This document shows, in pieces, positions 45,180-57,012 of a stretch of 64,000 bases of DNA (its first letter is position 1; each line of letters begins with the position of its first letter). The stretch covers positions 186,001 to 250,000 of the forward strand of contig NZ_ML974128.1 of the NCBI RefSeq assembly GCF_004765815.2, read 5' to 3'. A program made the position numbers and the translations under genes. The notes beneath the pieces were generated by a model. That model did not search any database. It was not told the origin of the DNA and was given only the letters and a program-made list of their open reading frames with translations. The DNA comes from Halorussus salinus. Its GTDB lineage: Archaea; Halobacteriota; Halobacteria; Halobacteriales; Haladaptataceae.

Positions 45180-46448
45180 ATGACCGCAGACGACTCCGCG
45201 AGCGACGGCGACCGTTCCGAGGAGGTGCCGAAGCGAGGCCGAGAGACAGTGCCGAAGCGAGGCCGAGAGGAGACGACGGGCCGACGCCCCGACGAGGTGA
45301 CGCGGCGGGCGCTCCTCGCGGGCGTCGGAGCGAGCGCGCTGGGCGCGGTCGGCGTCGCGGGCGCACGCGCCGACGCGACCGACCCAATCGACGCGACCGC
45401 ACCGACCGGCCGCCAGCAGGACGGGCCGACGATTCCGCCGCGACTCCCGAGCGCCATCGACGTGGACGTGCAAGCGGGCACCGTCACGCTCCCGCTCTAC
45501 CGCGGGCAGGCACCCGGCGGCGCGGTGTACTACGTTCTCCTCGAAACCAGCGACTTTCGACAGGCCCGGCGGCGGGGCCTGAACTGGTCGCCGAAGTTGA
45601 CCAACGCCCTCGACACGAACGCCGTGCAGGACGGCGCTGGCCGCCAACCGCGGGCGGGCAACCGCACCGACGCGGCGGCGGGCGTGGCGTTCACCGCGAC
45701 GCCGAACTTCGCGCTCGAACGGAGCGTAGTGCCCGGCCCGCGGGGGTTCCCGCTCGGCGGCGGCACCAACCCCGGCGCGAGGAGCGACCGGTACACGCCG
45801 CTGTTCGTGACCCGGCGGGGCGTCGTCTACAACGCGCCCCACGTCGCCAACGAGTCTGGCGACCACGACGCCGTGGTGGACATCGACCGCGACGCGCTGG
45901 AGGTCACGCTCGGCTTGACCGCGGGGTTCTACGAGGGCCAGCGCGTGCTGTACGTGAGTACCGAGGCCTCCTCGCCGGAACTGGCCGCGCTCGAAGGCGC
46001 GACGTACGCGCCGTCGCTCAACGCCGCGCCGTCCGCGGGCGACCGGACCGCCGCCACCTCCGCGCGCGAACCCATCGTGCCCGTGGTCAACGGACCGATG
46101 GGTGCCGACAATCCCGAGCGACAGGGCCTGCGCTCGGCGGTCGCTGGCGAGGGGAGTCCGCTCAACGTCGTCGCCGAGGAGCAGACCTGCGGCGACCCGA
46201 GTTTCCGCGACGACTGCGGCGCGCTGTTCTACAGTCCGCTCTGGGACGTGCATCCGGTCGCGTGGACGCAGGAAGCCATCGACGCCGGAGAGCGGCGCAG
46301 ACTGGTCAGCCACCAGCAGGTCATCGCCGCGTTCCGTGCGGGGGAACTGGCCACCGCCGCGCCCGACGGTGCCGTCAACGAACAGTTCGGAACTCTCCGG
46401 GCGGCGGGCGCGCTCGTCAACTGCTCGCTGATTCTGACCGGCACGTAG
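45180..46448 (+). CDS. Tat-exported protein of unknown function
   Basis: This 422-residue protein has a long charged n-region with a duplicated VPKRGRE (24-bp DNA repeat, 45225-45268), then a Tat motif TRRALLAGVG and an AxA-type site (GARADA). The mature part contains LPLYRGQAPGGAVYYVLLETSDF, a central GYEGQRVLYVSTEA-like region (actual FYEGQRVLYVST) and two cysteines (EQTCGDPSFRDDCGAL). It is probably secreted or surface-bound. Family not recognised. The stop codon lies within the first, degenerate copy of a tandem array. Confidence 0.8.
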   Translation: MTADDSASDGDRSEEVPKRGRETVPKRGREETTGRRPDEVTRRALLAGVGASALGAVGVAGARADATDPIDATAPTGRQQDGPTIPPRLPSAIDVDVQAGTVTLPLYRGQAPGGAVYYVLLETSDFRQARRRGLNWSPKLTNALDTNAVQDGAGRQPRAGNRTDAAAGVAFTATPNFALERSVVPGPRGFPLGGGTNPGARSDRYTPLFVTRRGVVYNAPHVANESGDHDAVVDIDRDALEVTLGLTAGFYEGQRVLYVSTEASSPELAALEGATYAPSLNAAPSAGDRTAATSAREPIVPVVNGPMGADNPERQGLRSAVAGEGSPLNVVAEEQTCGDPSFRDDCGALFYSPLWDVHPVAWTQEAIDAGERRRLVSHQQVIAAFRAGELATAAPDGAVNEQFGTLRAAGALVNCSLILTGT

Positions 46449-46578
46449 CGGGTGGGAGTGCGTAACGGGCGGTGATGCGTAACGGGCGGTGGTTCGTAAC
46501 GGGCGGTGATGCGTAACGGGCGGTGGTTCGTAACGGGCGGTGGTGCGTAGCGGGCGGTGGTGCGTAGCGGGCAGTAGT
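46443..46578. repeat. 17-bp tandem array
   Basis: Seven copies of a unit close to GCGTAACGGGCGGTGGT run from 46460 to 46578, preceded by a degenerate copy at 46443-46459 that includes the upstream stop codon TAG. Positions 1 (G/T) and 16 (A/G) vary between neighbours, giving part of the array a 34-bp higher-order period. There are no spacers, so it is not a CRISPR. Confidence 0.9.
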
Positions 46579-46676
46579 GTGGCGCGAGCAGAGATTTACC
46601 AGATGCGAGTCAAACACCTTGATTATATCACACGTCGTCCGGGAGAGGGAGTAGCCGATACTCGGGACGGGGACCA

Positions 46677-47324
46677 ATGCACGACGATACCACCGACGAG
46701 GCGGAGAACGGACTCACCCGGCGAAACTACGTGAAAGCGGTCGGAACGGCGGTCGGAGCGGTCTCCGGGTTGACGCTCGGGGCGACCCCGAGCGCGGCCC
46801 AGCAGACCGAACTCGTCTACGGCGGGACCGCGAACACGGTAATCCTCGCGGGCGACGGCATCTCGGTCACGCAGAACACGTACCAGCGGAACGTCATCTT
46901 GGTGTTCGGCCCGCCGAAGCAGGGCGGGTTGGCGGAGACGAACCCCTTCAGTCTGTTCGTCGGCCCGGCGGACAGAAACGAGACCGGGCAACCCGGCCAC
47001 TACGAGGTCCACTCGGCGGCGTTGGTCGGGTCGAACCTCTTCCAGTACTGGGACCTCCAGTTGCAGGGCAACGGGGGGTTCGCCGGAACGCTCACCGACC
47101 CGCACAACGCGGAGGGGTTGGTCTGGAACATCATCAACGTCGAGCGAGCCTTGATTCCGGGGCGACCGAACCTCGGCGTCCTCACCACGATGTTGGGGAT
47201 GGGCGTCGGCACCCAAATCTCTGGCGCGGTGACCGACGCGTCCGCCGAGGTCCGACTCCAAGGAGCGACCATCGACCAGTTCACCCAGTTCAGTTCCCAA
47301 ATCTCCGCGGCGCGCATCGCGTGA
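46677..47324 (+). CDS. Tat-exported protein of unknown function
   Basis: This 215-residue protein has a Tat signal (LTRRNYVKAVGTAVG) and a probable cleavage after SAA (PSAAQQ). The mature part is rich in Gly, Asn and Gln with beta-type phrases VYGGTANTVILAGDG and WDLQLQGNGGFAGTLTDP and no cysteines. Probably a secreted or surface protein. Family not recognised. It follows the tandem array; the first protein's stop and this start are about 230 bp apart. Confidence 0.75.
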   Translation: MHDDTTDEAENGLTRRNYVKAVGTAVGAVSGLTLGATPSAAQQTELVYGGTANTVILAGDGISVTQNTYQRNVILVFGPPKQGGLAETNPFSLFVGPADRNETGQPGHYEVHSAALVGSNLFQYWDLQLQGNGGFAGTLTDPHNAEGLVWNIINVERALIPGRPNLGVLTTMLGMGVGTQISGAVTDASAEVRLQGATIDQFTQFSSQISAARIA

Positions 47325-47695
47325 CTCGGTGCGACCCGACGACTCGGAATCCGGCGACCGACCAACGCGGCCGCGCCCGTCGAAAGACGTACCACTATTG
47401 AGTAATATATCGAGCAATTAGCGAGGCTTTTGATGTTTCCGTGTTCCGATAGAAACGTGGCGTGCTGTCCCGTCCGTCGCATCGCGCTAACGCCGCTGTG
47501 AACGGCACCTGTCATCAACTCGCCACGCACGCCACGAACCAGTCAGCCAACAGTCGTTGCCACTACGTCCCCCGATTTCCCGCATTTCTCCTTTCCCCTT
47601 TCGGCTTTTCTACGACCGCGGAGCGCGCGGTGGCTCTCGAAACCCGCTCCGACGGTCGTCTCGTCCGAGTCGAAAAGAACGGTCGAGTCCGAGTC
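47325..47695. other. Convergent intergenic region without a gene
   Basis: The gap between two converging genes holds A+T-rich sequence at 47395-47440 (TAATATATCG) and a pyrimidine-rich run near 47585-47610. Open frames here are Arg/Ser-rich and not convincing. The pyrimidine run, read on either strand, could help terminate the neighbouring transcripts. Confidence 0.4.
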
Positions 47696-50431
47696 TCAGT
47701 AGCTGTACTCGGTGTGTAGGCTCCCGCCGTCGTCGTAGAGGAGAACCGTGTCGCCGCCGTTGTTCCAGATGTAGTAGCCACCCCAGTAGAGGTCCGTGGC
47801 GGAGTCGGTCCCGTCGCCCGAGTGGAGACGCACCGTCTCGCCCGCGCCGAGCGAGAAGCCGTCGGGGAACTGATAGCTGTTGCCCGCGGCGTCCTCGACG
47901 GTCCAGCCGGTCAGGTCCTGCGCGCCCGAACCGGTGTTCTCGAAGTCCACGTACTCGTCGTTGAGCGTCGAACCGTCTGCGCTGACCGTCGCGACTCGAA
48001 TCGTCCCCTGCGAACCGGAACCGTCGTCGTTCGTCGGGTAGGACTTCTTCACGACGAGCGCGCCGTCGTCGTCGTAGACGTAGGCCGTGTCGCTGTCGTT
48101 GTTCCAGACGTACGACCCGCCCCAGTAGAGGTCCGTGGCGGAGTCGGTGCCGCTCCCGGAGTGGACCCGGACCGTCTCGCCCGCGTCGAGCGAGAAGCCG
48201 TCGGGGAACGCGTAGTCGTTGCCCGCCTCGTCTTCGAGGGTCCACCCGGTCAGGTCGAGGCTCCTCGACCCGTCGTTTCTCACGTCCACGTACTCGTCGT
48301 TCAGCGTCGAACCGTCCGGGCTGATAGTCGGGATGGAGACCGGGGGTCCGGACGACCCGCCGTCGTCGGGCGTGTAGGCGTCGAACAGCGGGAAGGAGGT
48401 ATCGAAGACGGTCGTCTCGGGGACCGCCGCGCTGGCGGCGACGCTGTTGGTGCTGTCTACCACTTGGTCGGCGTTGACCCGGAGGTCGGTGCCGAGACCG
48501 CTGGCGAGGTCGTTGACGTTCGCGCGGGCCGCCGAACTGGTCTGGCCGCTCCCCATCAGCACGACCGCGCCGCCGTCCGCGACGAAGTTGTTCAGCGCGT
48601 CGATTTCGCTCGCGGTGAACGACTCGGGCGGCGTCGTGACGACGACCGCTCGCGCGCCGTCGAGGGTCGCGCTCGTGAACTCGTTGACGCCCTCGAAGCC
48701 GATGTCTTGGCCTTCGAGGTAGCGCATGTAGTAGGCGGCGTCTTCGGCGGAGAGACCGTAGCCAGCGTCGAACTGGCCGTGGCCGCCGTCGATGAGAATG
48801 TCGCCCGACGAGTCCCCGAGGAGGTCCACGAGGTTCGTCAGGAAGGGGTAGTTGCCGTAGGTCGAAGTGTCGGTGCTGTAGCCCTCGCCTTTCTCGTAGC
48901 TCTCGTCCACGAAGGGGCCGCCGACCACGGCGACGCTGGCCGCCTCGTCCACGGCCACGAGCGGGATGTCGCCGCTGTAGCTGTAGCCGCCGTCGAGGCG
49001 CTGGGTCGCGCTGGTCTCGGCGTAGACCGGGACCCGCGAGTCGGGGACCGCGCCGCCGGTCGTCCGGACGCTCGCGGTCTTCGGGAAGAACAGTTGCGTG
49101 ACGGGACTGTCACGAATCTCCGGGGACGCGTCGGGGTCGCTCCGCGCCCAGACCTGCGTGCCGTTGGCTCGGGCGGTCTCCTCGGAGGCGCGGAACTCGC
49201 GGTGCTTGGCGAACGACGAGTCGTAGACGCGGGCGTGGCCCTGCTTGACGAGTTGGTGGTTGTAGTTGGCGTCGCGGGTGCCGTCGCCGGACTTGTCGTA
49301 GTAGAGGTAGCCCAGCACGCGGCCGAAGGCGTCCCGAACCGGTTCGTTCTCGTCGAACACGAGGTCCACCGTCTTCCCGCCGAGTTCGTTCTGTCCGAAG
49401 GTGGTCGCCTCGGCGGCCCGCTCTTCGAGGTAGGTGTTCGACTCGATGCCTTCCCACTCTTGGATGCGCTCGTACTGGTCGTTGGCCGCCTTCTCGGGCG
49501 TGTCGGTTCCGAGGATGCGGACGTTCTCGGTCGTACCGTCGGGGAGCGTGACCTTCACCGTGTCGCCGTCGATGACCTCTTGCACCGGCACCGAGTAGGT
49601 CTTGGTGGGGTCGAGGCCGAGTCCTTCGCGGTCCGAGAAGTAGGGGAACGAGGCGTTGAATCGGGTGGTGGTCGGCTGGTACGGTTCGCCGCCGTTGCGG
49701 ATTTGGTCGGTCACTTGGTCGTCGTTGAACCGGAACGCGAGTTCGAGGAACCCGGCGATGTCGTTGAGGTTCGCGGTCTCGTCGTAGCCGCCGTAGTCCG
49801 ACTGGTCGTGGAGGAACAGCCACCCGCCGTTCGACACGAAGTCGCCGAGAGCCTGTAGCTCCGACTGGGTGAACGCGGTACTCGGCGACGTGATGACCGC
49901 GGCGTCGGCCCCCGAGAGGTCGGCGGTGAGCGACGAGGTCGCGGTCACGGTGTAGCCCTCGCTCTCGGCGTAGGACGCGAACTGCGAGAACGTCGAGCGA
50001 GTGTAGTACTGGCCGTGGCCCTCGTCCCAGAGGACGGTGCCCGACCCGCCGAGCGCGTCGTCCCAGACGTTGAGCAGGAACTCCTCGTTGCCCCGTTGCC
50101 AGTTGGTGTCGCTGTCGGTCGCCAGCATCGACCCGAAGCCGACGACGTTCCAGTCGGCCGCGACCAGCGGAATCTTCGCGTCGTCGCCGTAGACCACGGC
50201 GTCGTTGCTCGAATCGGCGTCGCCGTTCGTCGCGGTCTCCTCGGCCCACACCGGCACGATGGAGTCGTCGGTCAGCGGCGTGTAGTCGTAACTCACCAGA
50301 CTCGACGTGGAGTAGCATTCGAGTTCGGGAATCTCGCCGGACGCTCCGCGGACGCGCCCGGTCAGTTCGATACCTGCGGCCGAACCGCCCGTCGCGGCCG
50401 CGAGCGAGGTCAGGAAAGTGCGTCTCCGCAT
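47696..50431 (-). CDS. Exported thermonuclease with duplicated scaffold and lamin-tail domains
   Basis: This 911-residue Tat protein (MRRRTFLTSLAAA) contains a thermonuclease domain at about 281-430. The catalytic residues R305, E313 and R371 and the calcium ligands D290 and D310 are kept, so it should cut nucleic acid outside the cell. It lies between two related DUF4350/amidotransferase-like modules (about 59-270 and 467-690) sharing DEGHGQ/DGGHGQ and SELQALGDFVSNGG/SEIDALNNFVADGG. Two lamin-tail domains (about 700-800 and 812-911) end the protein. Possible roles are DNA scavenging for phosphate or biofilm DNA turnover. Confidence 0.88.
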   Translation of the reverse strand: MRRRTFLTSLAAATGGSAAGIELTGRVRGASGEIPELECYSTSSLVSYDYTPLTDDSIVPVWAEETATNGDADSSNDAVVYGDDAKIPLVAADWNVVGFGSMLATDSDTNWQRGNEEFLLNVWDDALGGSGTVLWDEGHGQYYTRSTFSQFASYAESEGYTVTATSSLTADLSGADAAVITSPSTAFTQSELQALGDFVSNGGWLFLHDQSDYGGYDETANLNDIAGFLELAFRFNDDQVTDQIRNGGEPYQPTTTRFNASFPYFSDREGLGLDPTKTYSVPVQEVIDGDTVKVTLPDGTTENVRILGTDTPEKAANDQYERIQEWEGIESNTYLEERAAEATTFGQNELGGKTVDLVFDENEPVRDAFGRVLGYLYYDKSGDGTRDANYNHQLVKQGHARVYDSSFAKHREFRASEETARANGTQVWARSDPDASPEIRDSPVTQLFFPKTASVRTTGGAVPDSRVPVYAETSATQRLDGGYSYSGDIPLVAVDEAASVAVVGGPFVDESYEKGEGYSTDTSTYGNYPFLTNLVDLLGDSSGDILIDGGHGQFDAGYGLSAEDAAYYMRYLEGQDIGFEGVNEFTSATLDGARAVVVTTPPESFTASEIDALNNFVADGGAVVLMGSGQTSSAARANVNDLASGLGTDLRVNADQVVDSTNSVAASAAVPETTVFDTSFPLFDAYTPDDGGSSGPPVSIPTISPDGSTLNDEYVDVRNDGSRSLDLTGWTLEDEAGNDYAFPDGFSLDAGETVRVHSGSGTDSATDLYWGGSYVWNNDSDTAYVYDDDGALVVKKSYPTNDDGSGSQGTIRVATVSADGSTLNDEYVDFENTGSGAQDLTGWTVEDAAGNSYQFPDGFSLGAGETVRLHSGDGTDSATDLYWGGYYIWNNGGDTVLLYDDGGSLHTEYSY

Positions 50432-50460
50432 ACCGAAATACCGATTTTCGCGCTACATAA

Positions 50461-50500
50461 ATCAATACCATTCGAGAATATTGTTACTAGATATCAATAC
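50461..50500. promoter_or_regulatory. A+T-rich promoter region with direct repeats, nuclease gene
   Basis: Upstream of the nuclease ATG (50431) the sequence ATCAATAC occurs at 50461-50468 and 50493-50500 within an A+T-rich block. TTGATTTATG on the minus strand provides a TATA-like core. Confidence 0.35.
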
Positions 50501-50608
50501 GTTAAAAAGGTCGGCAGGCTCGGGCGGGAAGCGGACCCGAACCGAGGAGTTGACTTTCGTGGAGTTCCTACCACCGGCCATGACCCGACGGAACGGCGGT
50601 GGTCGGTG

Positions 50609-50806
50609 ATGGGCGGCGGTGAGAAGCTCCGGTTCGGCGCGGCGCTCGCGGCTGGCGTCATCCTGCCGGGGTTCCTGAAGTACGCGTTCACCACTATCGG
50701 CTACGCGAGGCTCGGGACCGCGGTGTGGGTCAGCGGCTACCTGACCGCCATCCTCGTCGTCTGGTACGTCTGGATTCGGCCCCTCGACCTGCAAGGTGCG
50801 ACGTAG
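50609..50806 (+). CDS. Small two-span membrane protein
   Basis: This 65-residue protein has two hydrophobic spans (about 9-27 and 39-55) and the ending WYVWIRPLDLQG. The start is MGGGEKLRFGAALA. The short size and lack of polar motifs fit a haloarchaeal hypothetical membrane peptide. It lies between the nuclease (other strand) and another small membrane protein. Confidence 0.65.
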   Translation: MGGGEKLRFGAALAAGVILPGFLKYAFTTIGYARLGTAVWVSGYLTAILVVWYVWIRPLDLQGAT

Positions 50807-50861
50807 CTACCCCCCGACGCCGCGGGGCGACTGCTCGCGGCCGACCGGCGGATAGCGGAAC

Positions 50862-50867
50862 TTTAAA
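50862..50867 (+). promoter_or_regulatory. TATA box of the 86-residue membrane protein gene
   Basis: TTTAAA at 50862-50867 lies about 32 nt before the ATG at 50897. Confidence 0.45.
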
Positions 50868-50896
50868 GGGTATTTCGGGGCGAGTTTTCGGTAAGG

Positions 50897-51157
50897 ATGA
50901 TAGAGTTCGTGCCACTGCCCCTCATCGACGACTTCCTGCTCCAGTACAACATCGGGCAGGTGCTGCTGTTCCTGTTCGTCCTGTCGGTGTTGGCGGCGAT
51001 ACCGCTCGGTTCGCGGAAGGTGCTGTCGCTGAACGCCATCACGTTCGGACTCCTGTTCGTCGTGACCCCGGCGAGCATGGCACCGCTGCCGTTCAAGTTC
51101 CTCGGCATCGCGCTCCTCGTCGTCGCGCCCGTGCTGTTCGTCACGGCGCGAGTGTGA
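50897..51157 (+). CDS. Small hydrophobic membrane protein
   Basis: The 86-residue product is almost entirely hydrophobic, with two or three spans (about 20-38, 44-60, 66-84) and the start MIEFVPLPLIDDFLLQYNIG. It has its own TATA box. No known family is recognised. The preceding gene also encodes a small membrane protein, but the 90-bp gap with a promoter suggests separate transcription. Confidence 0.7.
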   Translation: MIEFVPLPLIDDFLLQYNIGQVLLFLFVLSVLAAIPLGSRKVLSLNAITFGLLFVVTPASMAPLPFKFLGIALLVVAPVLFVTARV

Positions 51158-51195
51158 GGACCGAACCACAGTCGAGCGGCCCTTCTACGCGTTCG

Positions 51196-52164
51196 TCACT
51201 CGTCTCGGGGGAGCGCCACGCTCAGCAACGTCTCTCCGCCCGAAACCGTCGCCTCTCGGGTCAGCGAGTACAGAATCCCGGCGCGGTCGGTCTCGGCTTC
51301 CTGTAGCACCTCGTAGGTCGTCGGGTCATAGAGCGTCCCGATGCGTTCGCCCGGTTCGACGCGCTGGCCGACCGCGCGGTCGGGGTCGAGTCGGAACAGG
51401 CCCGCGTCGTCGGCCGTGACGCGGCCGAGGTGGTTGCGCGCGAGTCGGCGCTCGCCGGGGGCGTCCGGGTCGCCGGGCAGGAGGTCGAGGTGGCGCAGGA
51501 CCGCCAGCGTCCCCTCGACCCCGGCCTCCACCGCGTCCTCCACGAGTTGCTTGTTGTGCGCGAGTTCGGGCGTGATAGTCGGGATGCCCTCGCGGGTCGC
51601 CGCGACGCGGAGTTTCCCGTCGAAGTCCCGGTCGGCCCACTCGGCGTCGGCGTCCTCGCCCGCCTCCTCGGAGAGGAGCAAGTCGGTGCCGAACGCCTCG
51701 GCCAGCGCGCGCGACTCGTCGTGGCCCTCCATGAACACGACGTGGGTGAGCATGTCGGCGCTCCCGGTGTGGAGGTCCACCACGGCGTCGGCCTCGGAGA
51801 CGTACTCCCAGAGCGTCGCGGCCATGCGCTCGTGGACGGTGCCGCCGGGGTCGCCCGGCCAGACCCGGTTCATGTTCGGGTTCACGCTGTCCAACTGCTC
51901 GGGCGTGGTGTAGGACACCCGGTCGAACGTGAGCGGGTCGGCCACCGGGACCGCGACGAGTCGCCCCGCGAACCCCTCCTCGGAGCGGAGGCGGTCGTGG
52001 ACCCGCCGCAGGGTCTCGGTCCCGTTTATCTCTCGGCCGTGCTGGGCGGCCTGCACGTAGACGGTCGGTCCCTCGTCGTCGCCGTCGTAGGTGTGAACCG
52101 TGGTCTCGATTTCGACGCCGGACGGGAGTCGCGCGAGCGTGACGCGCTCTGCACTGTGGTCCAT
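51196..52164 (-). CDS. Succinylglutamate desuccinylase/aspartoacylase-family hydrolase
   Basis: This 322-residue zinc carboxypeptidase-like protein has zinc ligands H42 and E45 (AQHGREINGTE) and H132 (VVDLHTGSAD). NPNMNRVWPGD supplies the substrate-binding arginine. The C-terminal half (about 210-322) is a beta-rich domain including VEPGERIGTLYDPTTYEV. Family members deacylate N-acylated amino acids. This could touch N-acetyl amino acids made by DgcN-type pathways, but the genes are 29 kb apart. Confidence 0.88.
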   Translation of the reverse strand: MDHSAERVTLARLPSGVEIETTVHTYDGDDEGPTVYVQAAQHGREINGTETLRRVHDRLRSEEGFAGRLVAVPVADPLTFDRVSYTTPEQLDSVNPNMNRVWPGDPGGTVHERMAATLWEYVSEADAVVDLHTGSADMLTHVVFMEGHDESRALAEAFGTDLLLSEEAGEDADAEWADRDFDGKLRVAATREGIPTITPELAHNKQLVEDAVEAGVEGTLAVLRHLDLLPGDPDAPGERRLARNHLGRVTADDAGLFRLDPDRAVGQRVEPGERIGTLYDPTTYEVLQEAETDRAGILYSLTREATVSGGETLLSVALPRDE

Positions 52165-52347
52165 GATAGGTTCTCTGTCGCGTGGTAATTGAAGCTACTG
52201 CCTCCCGCGGGTCGGTCCGCCGACGATTCGGCGGGTCGCGGTTCGGACGCTCGCGGTCCCCGACCCGCGACGAGGAGGTCCGGTAACTACGACGCTCGTT
52301 TCACTCACCGCCGATTATTAATGGCTCGGCTGACACGACTCGAAGCG

Positions 52348-53847
52348 ATGACCAGTCCCTCCGACGCCCCCGATTCGACGCGGCGAAGGCTCCTCGCGAG
52401 TGGCGGTCTCCTCGTCGGGACCGCCGGACTCGCGGGCTGTATCTCCGGTACGGGGTCGAAACCCACTACGAGTGAGACGCCGACGACCGACGACGGGCAA
52501 CCGGCCGACGGAGCGACGGCCGACGAGGAGACTGCCGACGAGGTCGCCGCGGAACCGCCCGGTTCGACGGCGTGGCCCCAGTTCGGCCACGACGCGAGCA
52601 ACGCCGGGCACGCGCGGTCGGCCAGCGGTCCCGGCGCGGACGCCGCGCTGGCGTGGCGCTTCGACGCCGAGACGCCGACGATGAACTCCTCGCCCGTGGT
52701 CGCGGACGGCACCGTCTACGCGCCGGGGAGCGGCGACCCCGGCTACGTCCACGCCATCGACGCCGAGACCGGCGAATCGGTCTGGCGCTTCGAACCGGCG
52801 GGCTACGCGAGTTGCGCGCCCGCGGTCAGCGACGGCCGCGTCTACGTCGGGACGTGGGGGAAGAAATTCTACGCACTCGACGCCGAGACCGGCGAACAGC
52901 TTTGGACGAACGACGCGGGCCACCGGTTCGGGTCCTCCTCGCCCGCCGTCGCGGACGGCACCGTCTACGTCGGGACCGTCGGCGACGGGCCGATGGTCGT
53001 CAGCGGCGAGGAGGACGAGGAGCAGTTCGAGTCCTGTGCGGTCCTCGCGCTCGACGCCGAAACCGGCGACGAGCGGTGGCGCTACGACGACTTCGGCGAG
53101 AAGGAGAACGTCGAGTCGTCCATCGCGGTCGCGGACGGTCGGGTCTACTTCGGCGGCGAGTCGGCGGTGTACGCGCTCGACACTGACTCGGGGTCGGTCG
53201 CGTGGTCCCGCGAGGTCGCGGCCCACCCACAGTCGTCGCCCGCGGTCGCGGACGGAACGGTGTACTACGGCGGGCCGTCGGCCGCCGACGAGGGTCCGCC
53301 CGCGAAGTTGTCCGCCCTCGACGCGGCGTCGGGCGAGACGGTCTGGACCGCCGGTATCGAGGACACCAGCCTCCGGACCTCCCCCGCAATCGCGGACGGG
53401 ACGGTGTACGTCGCGGCCTCCTCGACGCGGGCGTGTCTCCTCGGCGGCGGGGAGCCGAGTACCGAGACCGACGACGGCGGGAACGGTACCGACGACGGCG
53501 AGAACGGCACCAACGGCGGAGACGGCACCGAAGACGGCGACTCGAACTGCTCGGGGACCAACCGCGGGCGACTCTACGCCCTCGACGCGGCCAGCGGCGA
53601 ACGCCGGTGGACCGCCGAACTCCGGACCGACACGCGCTCGTCGCCAGCGGTCGCCGACGGCGCGGTCTACGTCGGCAACGGCGACGGACTCTCGGCGGTC
53701 TCGACCGGCGGCGAGAGCTTGTGGCGCATCGCCTTCGACGGGGAGCGCGACGGCGGCCCGTACCTCGATTCGTCGCCCGCAATCGGCGGCGGTCGCGTCT
53801 TCGTCGGCGCGTCGGACGGCCGCCTGCGCGCAATCGGACAGAAATAA
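52348..53847 (+). CDS. PQQ-type beta-propeller lipoprotein
   Basis: This 499-residue Tat lipoprotein (STRRRLLASGG, lipobox C31 in AGLAGCISG) has an Asp/Thr linker and then a propeller of repeated units such as AIDAETGESVWRFEPAG, ALDAETGEQLWTNDAG and ALDAASGERRWTAELR. These resemble BamB/PQQ-dehydrogenase blades; no catalytic Asp or cysteine-ring pair is seen. A Gly/Asn/Asp low-complexity loop occupies about 372-396. It probably acts in binding or assembly at the cell surface. ATG 52321 is an alternative start. Confidence 0.85.
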   Translation: MTSPSDAPDSTRRRLLASGGLLVGTAGLAGCISGTGSKPTTSETPTTDDGQPADGATADEETADEVAAEPPGSTAWPQFGHDASNAGHARSASGPGADAALAWRFDAETPTMNSSPVVADGTVYAPGSGDPGYVHAIDAETGESVWRFEPAGYASCAPAVSDGRVYVGTWGKKFYALDAETGEQLWTNDAGHRFGSSSPAVADGTVYVGTVGDGPMVVSGEEDEEQFESCAVLALDAETGDERWRYDDFGEKENVESSIAVADGRVYFGGESAVYALDTDSGSVAWSREVAAHPQSSPAVADGTVYYGGPSAADEGPPAKLSALDAASGETVWTAGIEDTSLRTSPAIADGTVYVAASSTRACLLGGGEPSTETDDGGNGTDDGENGTNGGDGTEDGDSNCSGTNRGRLYALDAASGERRWTAELRTDTRSSPAVADGAVYVGNGDGLSAVSTGGESLWRIAFDGERDGGPYLDSSPAIGGGRVFVGASDGRLRAIGQK

Positions 53848-54051
53848 CTGTCGAAATCAATTGTATAGGCGTTTATTAGAAACACAGAGAATTCCCAGCG
53901 GTCGATTCAGCGGCGGGCGGGTCGTCTACGCTCGCTCGCGTTCTATCGCCCCGAACGCCACCGTCTGCCGAGTTCGGGCGAATCCGGCGACGGCTTCTTT
54001 CAAGAGATAGACTATATGAAGGTTTTTCCGGGGCAGTATCGTATCCGGCCC

Positions 54052-57012
54052 ATGAACGAACCGGCGGAGGCTTCGGGGTCGGCGTTCTGGGGCGACGCCG
54101 ACGACGAGGAGGCCCTCCGGCGCTATCGGACGCTCCTCGACGACATCGGCGAAGGCGTCTACCGACTCGACGCCGAGGGTCGCTTCGTCGGCGTCAACGA
54201 CGCGCTCCTGACGACGACCGGCTACGCCCGCGACGAGTTGCTCGGCGAACACCTCGGCGCGCTCCTCGACGCCAGCGACCTCGCGGCCGTCGAGCGCGAG
54301 ACCGAGCGCCGACTCGCTGGTGAGGCAGGCGAGTCGGTCGCGGTGGCGCTCCGGGCGGCCGACGGCGACGCGATTCCGGCCGAGGTGTCGGTCTCGGTCT
54401 GCGTCGCCGACGGCGAGTTCCGGGGCGCGACCGGCGTCGTCCGCGAGGCCGACCGGGACGCCCACCGGCGACGGGCCGCGGCGGTCTTGGACGCGAGTCC
54501 CGTCGGCGTCGTCGTCCGCGACGCCGACGGAGCGGTCGTGCGGGCCAACGACCGGGCCGGGGACCTCCTCGGCGCGTCCGCGGGCGAGTGCCGAACCGGG
54601 ACGAGCGACGAGCGCCCGCTGGCCGAATCCGGGCCGGACTCGGCCGCCCCACCGCGGTTCTACGACGAGGAGGGTCGCCGCGTCCCTCCGGACGAGCGCC
54701 CGTCTGCTCGCGTGGCGGCGACCGGCGAGTCGGTCGCCGGGAGCGTCCTGCGCGTCGAACCGCCGGACGGCGAGCGGCGATGGCTGTCGGTCGAGGCCGC
54801 GCCGGTCTCGCCCGACGGCGACACGGAGCGCGTCGTCGCGACCTACGAGGACGTGACCGACCTCAAGGAGCGCGAGCGCGAACTCGAAAACGAACTCAGC
54901 GAGATATTCGGCCGCGTGACCGACGCGTTCTACGCGCTGGACGACGAGTGGCAGTTCACCCACGCCAACGACCGCGCCGAGGAACTCGTCGATTACCGGG
55001 GCGAGGGACTGGTCGGCCGGAAGCTCTGGGACGTGTTCGAGTGGGCCGCCGACTCGAAACTCGCCGACGAGTACCGCGAGGCGATGGCGACCCAAGAGCC
55101 GACCGCCTTCGAACTCTACTACCCCGAGCCGCTGGAAGCGTGGTACGAAATCCGGGCGTACCCATCCGAGAGTGGCCTCTCCGTCTACTTCCGGGACGTG
55201 ACCGAGCGCAAACGCCGCGAGCGCGAGTTAGAGGAGTCCGAGCGACGCTATCGCTCGCTCGCGGAGTACTTCCCGAACGGCATCGTGACGCTGTTCGACC
55301 CCGACTGCGAGTACACGCTGGCAGCGGGCCAAGCGTTCGACTACATCCCAGTCGAACCCGGCGACCTCGAAGGCAGACACTTCCGGGACGTGTGGGACGC
55401 CGAGACCGCCGACGGACTCGAACCGGCGTTCTCGGCCGCGCTCGACGGCGAGAAGCGGTCGGTCGAGGTGAGCTACGCCGGACGCGAGTGGGTCGTCCAC
55501 GCGGTGCCCATCACCGACGAGGGCGGCGACGTGTTCGCCGGGATGACGATGGCCCAAGACGTGACCGAGCAGAAAGAACGGGAGCGATACCTGCGGGAGG
55601 CCAAGTCCCAACTGGAGGCCGCGACCGAGGCGGGCGCGGTCGGCACGTGGGAGTGGCGGATTCAGGAAGACGAGATGGTGACGGGCACGTCGTTCGCCGA
55701 GACGTTCGGCGTGGACCCCGAGGCGGCCCGCGATGGCGTCTCGCTCGACCGATACATCGAGGCCATCCACGACGAGGACCGCGAGCGCGTCGAGCGCGAG
55801 ATAGCCGCGGCCGTCGAGAGCGGCGAGGACTACGAAGCGGAGTACCGGGTCTGGAACGACGACGACGAACTCCGCTGGGTGGTCGCGCGGGGCCACGTCG
55901 AGTGCGACGACGAGGGCGAACCCGTCACGTTCCCCGGTGCGCTCACCGACATCACCGAGCGCAAGCGGGCCGAACGCGAACTCGAAGACCACCGCAAACA
56001 GCTCGAAACGCTCTTCGAGGTCCTGCCCGTCGGCGTCGTCGTCGCGGACGAAGACGGCGGCGGCGTCGAGATGAACGACGCCGCGACCGAAATCGTCGGC
56101 GAGAACCCGTTCACTCCCGACAGCGTCGCGGAGTACGACGGCTATCCGGGCCGGTGGGCCGACACCGGCGAACCGGTCGCCCCCGACGAGTGGACGCTGG
56201 CCCGCGTCCTCCGCGGCGAGGAGGTAACCGACCCCGACGTGTACGAACTCGACGCGGGAGACGGCGAGCGCCGGACGGTCATGGTCCACGGGATGCCGAT
56301 TCGGGACGCGAGCGGCGAAGTCACTCGCGGGGTCGCCACCGTGACCGACGTGACCGAGCGCGAGGAGCGCGAACAGCGCCTGCAACGCCAGAACGAGCGC
56401 CTCGAAAGCTTCGCCAGCATGCTCGCTCACGAACTGCGCAACCCCGTCACCATCGGCCAAATCTACAGCAGTCAACTGCCCGAGGGCCGAGCGTCCGAAG
56501 CGGTCGGCTACGTCACGGAGGCGTTCGACCGCATCGAGGAGATGATAGACGTGATGTTGGTCCTGACGCGGGGCCGAGAGGCCGTCGGCGAGTGCAACGA
56601 CGTGGCGCTGGCGGCGGTGGCCCGCGAGGCGTGGGACGGAATCGACGCCCCGGAGACGAGCCTCGACGTGGAAGTCACGGAGACGGTTCGGGCCGACGAG
56701 ACGTACCTCCGGCACCTGTTGCGGAACCTGTTCGAGAACGCAATTCGACACGGCGACGCGACGACCGTTCTCCTCGGCGAGACCGAGACGGGGTTCTACG
56801 TCGCCGACGACGGGAGCGGGATTCCGGCCGAGGAGCGCGAGCGCGTCTTCGAGGCCGGATTCACCACGGCGGCGGGCGAGGGCGGCACGGGACTCGGCCT
56901 CGCGTTCGTCGAGGAACTCGCGGCGGTCTACGGGTGGCGATGTCGCGTGATCGACAGCGAGTCGGGGGGCGCGCGCTTCGAGTTCGAGAACGTGGACGGC
57001 GGCCGAGCGTAG
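54052..57012 (+). CDS. Multi-PAS sensor histidine kinase
   Basis: This 986-residue cytoplasmic kinase has about six PAS domains in tandem (about 20-135, 140-270, 285-400, 405-515, 525-645, 655-780); two or three carry the PAC ending DVTERK. The HisKA-like helix follows, with phosphoacceptor H793 (MLAHELRNPVTIG). The ATPase domain has an N box (NLFENAIRHG), G1 box (DDGSGIP) and G2 box (GGTGLGLAFVEEL). No membrane span and no receiver domain are present, so the partner regulator is elsewhere. ATG 54016 is an alternative start. Confidence 0.92.
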   Translation: MNEPAEASGSAFWGDADDEEALRRYRTLLDDIGEGVYRLDAEGRFVGVNDALLTTTGYARDELLGEHLGALLDASDLAAVERETERRLAGEAGESVAVALRAADGDAIPAEVSVSVCVADGEFRGATGVVREADRDAHRRRAAAVLDASPVGVVVRDADGAVVRANDRAGDLLGASAGECRTGTSDERPLAESGPDSAAPPRFYDEEGRRVPPDERPSARVAATGESVAGSVLRVEPPDGERRWLSVEAAPVSPDGDTERVVATYEDVTDLKERERELENELSEIFGRVTDAFYALDDEWQFTHANDRAEELVDYRGEGLVGRKLWDVFEWAADSKLADEYREAMATQEPTAFELYYPEPLEAWYEIRAYPSESGLSVYFRDVTERKRRERELEESERRYRSLAEYFPNGIVTLFDPDCEYTLAAGQAFDYIPVEPGDLEGRHFRDVWDAETADGLEPAFSAALDGEKRSVEVSYAGREWVVHAVPITDEGGDVFAGMTMAQDVTEQKERERYLREAKSQLEAATEAGAVGTWEWRIQEDEMVTGTSFAETFGVDPEAARDGVSLDRYIEAIHDEDRERVEREIAAAVESGEDYEAEYRVWNDDDELRWVVARGHVECDDEGEPVTFPGALTDITERKRAERELEDHRKQLETLFEVLPVGVVVADEDGGGVEMNDAATEIVGENPFTPDSVAEYDGYPGRWADTGEPVAPDEWTLARVLRGEEVTDPDVYELDAGDGERRTVMVHGMPIRDASGEVTRGVATVTDVTEREEREQRLQRQNERLESFASMLAHELRNPVTIGQIYSSQLPEGRASEAVGYVTEAFDRIEEMIDVMLVLTRGREAVGECNDVALAAVAREAWDGIDAPETSLDVEVTETVRADETYLRHLLRNLFENAIRHGDATTVLLGETETGFYVADDGSGIPAEERERVFEAGFTTAAGEGGTGLGLAFVEELAAVYGWRCRVIDSESGGARFEFENVDGGRA

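Follow-up and report, generated by a model that had tools for sequence, protein, structure and literature searches.

The window analysed here, a stretch of 64,000 nucleotides from Halorussus salinus, encodes on its minus strand a protein of 911 residues, translated from an ATG start codon, in which a Tat signal is followed in order by a GIFT domain, a staphylococcal-type nuclease (SNase) domain, a second GIFT domain and two lamin tails. The features of this gene, in positions of the window, are as follows:

47696..50431, minus strand: the whole frame, 911 residues and stop codon (open reading frame; full-length homologues exist)
50339..50431, minus strand: Tat-type signal region, residues 1-31, beginning MRRRTFLTSLAAATGGSAAG... 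(arginine pair, hydropathy, charge)
49616..50329, minus strand: first GIFT/DUF4350 module, residues 35-272, GHGQ at 138 (profiles, alignment)
49124..49615, minus strand: staphylococcal-type nuclease, residues 273-436 (Pfam, NCBIfam, PDB sequence match, Foldseek)
49319..49564, minus strand: span from D290 to R371, with D290, R305, D310, E313 and R371 (alignment)
49433..49471, minus strand: family-specific loop, residues 321-333, with E321, E325, W326, E327 and G328 (alignment)
48368..49093, minus strand: second GIFT/DUF4350 module, residues 447-688, GHGQ at 550 (profiles, alignment)
48032..48346, minus strand: first lamin-tail domain, residues 696-800 (Pfam, alignment, Foldseek)
47699..48019, minus strand: second lamin-tail domain, residues 805-911 (Pfam, alignment, Foldseek)
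50502..50508, minus strand: TTTTTAA, about 70 bases 5' of the start codon, possibly a TATA-like element of the nuclease gene (by eye)

The flanking genes encode a DUF7482 protein (45180-46448, plus strand), a protein with an RR signal that belongs to no Pfam family (46677-47324, plus strand), an AstE/AspA-type hydrolase (51196-52164, minus strand), a PQQ beta-propeller protein (52321-53847, plus strand) and a multi-PAS histidine kinase (54016-57012, plus strand). No link between the nuclease and these genes, from 45180 to 57012 of the window, was seen.

Domains and conserved residues of the predicted exported nuclease

A Pfam search of the 911 residues recovered an SNase domain, two DUF4350/GIFT stretches and two LTD domains, all with matches exceeding the curated cut-offs. 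The SNase profile (PF00565) covered residues 303-429 with 48.8 bits against a cut-off of 21 (E 1e-12). DUF4350 (50.9 against 30.4 bits), IFT52_GIFT (46.4 against 27.2 bits) and ABC_transp_aux (also above its cut-off) each matched two stretches, with E values of 3e-13 to 4e-12, and LTD (PF00932) likewise matched twice (139.1 against 34.3 bits, E 9e-41). The NCBIfam equivalogs EcnA (103.3 bits) and NucI (51.4 bits) stayed under their cut-offs of 180 and 250, respectively, while sequence searches of the PDB recovered staphylococcal nuclease and the GIFT domain of IFT52. The AlphaFold model of the protein (28 homologues) has a mean pLDDT of 84 and a pTM of 0.53, so that each domain can be trusted by itself but not its placement relative to the others. 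In a Foldseek comparison of this model with the PDB, staphylococcal nuclease ranked first, most of the top matches having a TM to target of 0.80-0.87; lamin Ig-like domains were matched with TM to target up to 0.78, and the IMPa metallopeptidase was also among the matches.

The alignment places R305, E313 and R371 on the catalytic R35, E43 and R87 of SNase, and D290 and D310 on its calcium ligands D21 and D40, so that the set of residues described as intact in the initial annotation is indeed found at the positions claimed. All 98 domains compared retain D290, R305, D310 and E313, and the 97 that cover the position of R371 all have that residue; such retention across 97-98 diverged sequences argues for selection on catalysis. 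The loop comprising E321, E325, W326, E327 and G328, directly past the catalytic E313, is a signature of the family, and its E321, E325 and W326 are invariant even in relatives without an inserted module (see below).

Aligned with each other over about 230 residues, the two GIFT modules are 35% identical (pairwise E 1e-23) and hence true duplicates, as had been proposed for the duplicated DUF4350-like modules with their shared GHGQ, and disposes of the possibility that the two are unrelated. The nuclease had been described as inserted inside this duplicated scaffold; instead it sits between two complete GIFT modules and not within either. The label amidotransferase-like holds for the resemblance in fold and fails for the chemistry, there being no catalytic cysteine and no match to a glutaminase family. 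Amidotransferase catalysis by these modules was accordingly rejected, with C39 both single and unconserved and no amidotransferase family matched in Pfam. Both modules are very acidic (net charges of -33 and -28), which speaks against direct DNA binding by them. GIFT domains have been proposed as sugar binders, as cited in PMC7226087. The two lamin tails, 66% identical to each other, were correctly recognised at the outset, as indicated by the two LTD matches and the lamin Ig fold in the model.

The protein as a whole is strongly acidic (net charge -102). The arginine pair of its signal (MRRRTFLTSL) is invariant in 28 aligned homologues, and this supports the earlier assignment of a Tat signal and the predicted export of the nuclease. 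The accompanying claim of a location at the cell surface is not supported for this protein, which has no lipobox motif, its sole cysteine being C39, and no transmembrane anchor, none of its segments being hydrophobic enough to span a membrane (maximum mean Kyte-Doolittle value of 1.45 over 19 residues).

A haloarchaeal family with exchangeable ends and nested modules

The architecture is not unique to this species: strong matches, many of them full-length, were found in about 100 of 391 sampled haloarchaeal genomes, counting listed genomes with E of about 1e-80 or better. A scan of named genomes recovered 69 loci across many genera, including Haladaptatus, Halomarina, Halorubellus, Halegenticoccus, Haloferax, Halobaculum, Halosimplex, Natrinema and Natronococcus. 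In the tree the Halorussus protein is nearest to a congener, with 85% across the columns compared; H. ruber and H. salinisoli come next. Outside Halobacteriales the Tat-GIFT-SNase-GIFT core was not found in the phylum sample, which held only separate SNase, lamin-tail, and SNase plus lamin-tail proteins. Clustering of the neighbor genes in the named loci yielded no conserved neighborhood or operon for the type seen in the window, with neighbor genes common only to close species. Plasmid records name related proteins after one part or another: 'lamin tail', 'PKD' or 'thermonuclease family'. A viral origin was also considered and rejected, no relatives being confirmed among viral contigs. The open-access literature yielded no paper joining DUF4350 with thermonuclease, though subscription journals may hold one; this agrees with the initial annotation, which knew of no characterisation of this exact architecture. 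The Tat-GIFT-SNase-GIFT family is uncharacterised yet widespread in haloarchaea, while the combination of SNase and lamin tail in these organisms was previously known.

Profiles built from the alignment showed that the recurrent core carries one, two or no lamin tails, in a survey in which some genes appear twice under two locus identifiers. Other relatives end in fn3, PKD or PPC domains, or in basic tails rich in Gly, Arg and Lys. Several GIFT stretches lie N-terminal to the SNase in relatives from Natrinema, Haloterrigena, Natronococcus and Halorubrum alkaliphilum (L093, L099, L101, L102 and L103). In Halococcus morrhuae (L077) a stretch of PPDHAGPP repeats occupies residues ~530-596 of the main frame, inside the second GIFT module. 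Three further homologues (L066, L089 and L098) extend across two frames or have a shortened first GIFT module, reflecting either a broken gene or an assembly error.

The more surprising part of the family, compared with the window protein itself, is a set of nested nucleases. In 13 relatives usable for the tree (L064, L065, L068, L070, L072, L074, L075, L078, L079, L081, L085, L088 and L090), one or two extra GIFT modules lie within the SNase domain just past the catalytic glutamate, in a single frame and with all catalytic residues retained. The insertion point is the family-specific loop, corresponding to residues 321-333 of the window protein, with the junction reading AERPEEWEG / GIFT / YL.EW. 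In each of seven nested relatives tested, the unsplit SNase profile matched in two complementary pieces (roughly positions 1-60 and 59-164), with hundreds of residues between them in a single open frame. By similarity the inserted modules are of the N-terminal GIFT type and not of the C-terminal one. The nested label requires two changes on the tree, so that a single origin followed by one loss is possible. An AlphaFold model of nested L070 (11 sequences) had low confidence in both parts of the split nuclease, and Foldseek recovered no SNase from it; the nesting was therefore read from the profile matches. The idea that the nested forms are pseudogenes or artefacts was rejected in view of their single open frames, their presence in several species and their retained catalytic residues; one of them, L074 of Halosimplex aquaticum, sits on a complete chromosome. 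Nested GIFT modules also occur in L096 and L100, in broken frames. True nesting was seen only in relatives and takes the form of GIFT inside SNase, the reverse of the nuclease inside a scaffold that had been suggested for the window protein.

Five of the relatives (L064, L065, L081, L088 and L090) carry at their C-terminus a cohesin-like domain together with a paired calcium loop resembling dockerin. The start of the adjacent gene lies no more than a few bases away, and its product has a similar cohesin-like domain, mostly accompanied by a hydrophobic segment at the C-terminus:

L064:4336-5085, cohesin-like neighbor gene
L065:11450-12166, cohesin-like neighbor gene
L081:12272-13048, cohesin-like neighbor gene
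L088:11449-12216, cohesin-like neighbor gene
L090:11467-12225, cohesin-like neighbor gene

Dockerin_1 matched all three tails tested, under its curated cut-off (best E 4e-4), and the Cohesin profile matched once (E 0.009). Against the PDB these tails recovered dockerins with E of 0.02-0.08 and a carbohydrate-binding chain with E of 0.0025. The dockerin-like and cohesin-like identity of the tails and neighbors is predicted from these matches with moderate confidence, and the branch could possibly form a surface-tethered assembly.

Comparisons and potential functions

Hvo_1477 of Haloferax volcanii is a protein of 327 residues with a lipobox, an SNase domain and a lamin tail (for the tail see also PMC5118699), and deletion of its gene showed that growth on extracellular DNA depends on it (PMC3929857). 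The window protein is similarly a haloarchaeal, exported SNase-type nuclease with C-terminal lamin tails, but it has two tails, separated from the SNase by a GIFT module, two GIFT modules in all and no lipobox, whereas Hvo_1477 is a predicted lipoprotein that lacks GIFT modules and has one lamin tail after the SNase. The genome from which the window derives also holds a separate Hvo_1477-like SNase plus lamin-tail gene (306 residues; G000:C1:3274-4068; L002, L004), whose product has neither a lipobox nor the E..EWEG loop, and whose SNase domain is 41% identical to that of the 911-residue protein. Staphylococcal nuclease itself (thermonuclease, PF00565) shares the fold and the catalytic set, and differs from this multidomain protein of 911 residues with its family-specific loop past the catalytic glutamate. 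The GIFT/DUF4350/ABC_transp_aux domains of the GldG, IFT52 and Wbp1 types are matched by two copies above the Pfam cut-offs, but here they are predicted to be exported and are fused to a nuclease, rather than being part of an ABC transporter, an IFT or a glycosylation complex. Halophile DNaseI-type enzymes with lamin-tail or HhH domains are comparable as exported nucleases with an added C-terminal domain, although the catalytic families are unrelated; lamin tails occur on such enzymes only in halophilic or halotolerant species, and DNA binding has been proposed for them (PMC4486849). Hlac_1867 and the Halobacterium ComA-type proteins are likewise haloarchaeal hydrolases with a lamin tail, for which a link to extracellular DNA has been inferred (PMC5118699), but combine it with a metallo-beta-lactamase domain and no GIFT, in place of SNase and GIFT.

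On a slight balance of probability, we favor an exported, calcium-dependent nuclease acting on extracellular DNA in a nutritional role, with non-catalytic GIFT and lamin-tail binding modules. In what we infer of its activity, substrate, ligands and nutritional role, the Tat-exported SNase-type enzyme would cut extracellular DNA, and perhaps RNA, in high salt, and cleavage would supply the cell with phosphate and nucleosides. As for the two GIFT modules, they would most likely tie the nuclease to glycans of the matrix or envelope, or else place the substrate by the active site. The two lamin tails would be exchangeable C-terminal binding modules that help the enzyme to keep its grip on DNA or matrix when ionic strength is high, given that the C-terminal modules are swapped in the family while the core stays. 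In favor of this explanation also count the conserved catalytic set, the SNase fold of the model, the invariant arginine pair of the signal and the strong acidity of the protein. A role in the use of extracellular DNA, as the initial annotation had ventured, is plausible because of the analogy with Hvo_1477. Against this explanation count the acidity of the GIFT modules, the lack of phosphate-uptake neighbors and of a conserved neighborhood for this type, the origin of the sugar-binding proposal for GIFT in other proteins, and the separate Hvo_1477-like gene, by which the role in extracellular DNA use may be covered already.

A rather less probable alternative is that nutrition is secondary, and that the main role lies in remodelling the DNA of the biofilm matrix, or in destroying DNA from viruses or lysed rivals close to the envelope. 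Extracellular DNA is present in haloarchaeal biofilms (PMC5118699), and both the C-terminal adhesion-type modules found throughout the family and the dockerin-like tethering of one branch would suit such a role, whereas the neighbor-gene clustering of the named loci turned up no genes for biofilm formation, defence or competition linked to the nuclease. The nested relatives bring up the unlikely option that the GIFT modules regulate the nuclease, with sugar or metal binding shifting the catalytic loop and thereby switching cutting on or off. The 13 single-frame proteins with GIFT in the loop past E313, their retained catalytic residues, and the invariance of E321, E325 and W326 also in the absence of an insertion are consistent with this; on the other hand, loops tolerate insertions without any regulation, and confidence in the two nuclease parts of the nested model is too low for it to lend support. 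Similarly speculative is a bolder form, in which copies of an N-type GIFT module would be built around the catalytic SNase loop, and in one branch into it, for control of cutting by glycan or metal recognition, and in a sub-branch dockerin-like and cohesin-like parts would tether the enzyme to a neighboring membrane protein in a cellulosome-type, DNA-degrading surface assembly. That the protein is a structural or adhesive surface protein whose nuclease domain is no longer active might be suggested by its bulk of non-catalytic, binding-type modules, but the retention of catalytic residues and calcium ligands in 97-98 diverged sequences renders this very improbable.

Extracellular DNA is a source of phosphate in brines, and in the open-access literature found Hvo_1477 is the only archaeal gene tied by deletion to its use. 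The second, larger and widespread family described here has its catalytic residues intact, which makes it a prime candidate for further activity of this kind. Staphylococcal nuclease is a classic folding model, and the nested forms represent natural domain insertions beside its catalytic glutamate that are directly testable.
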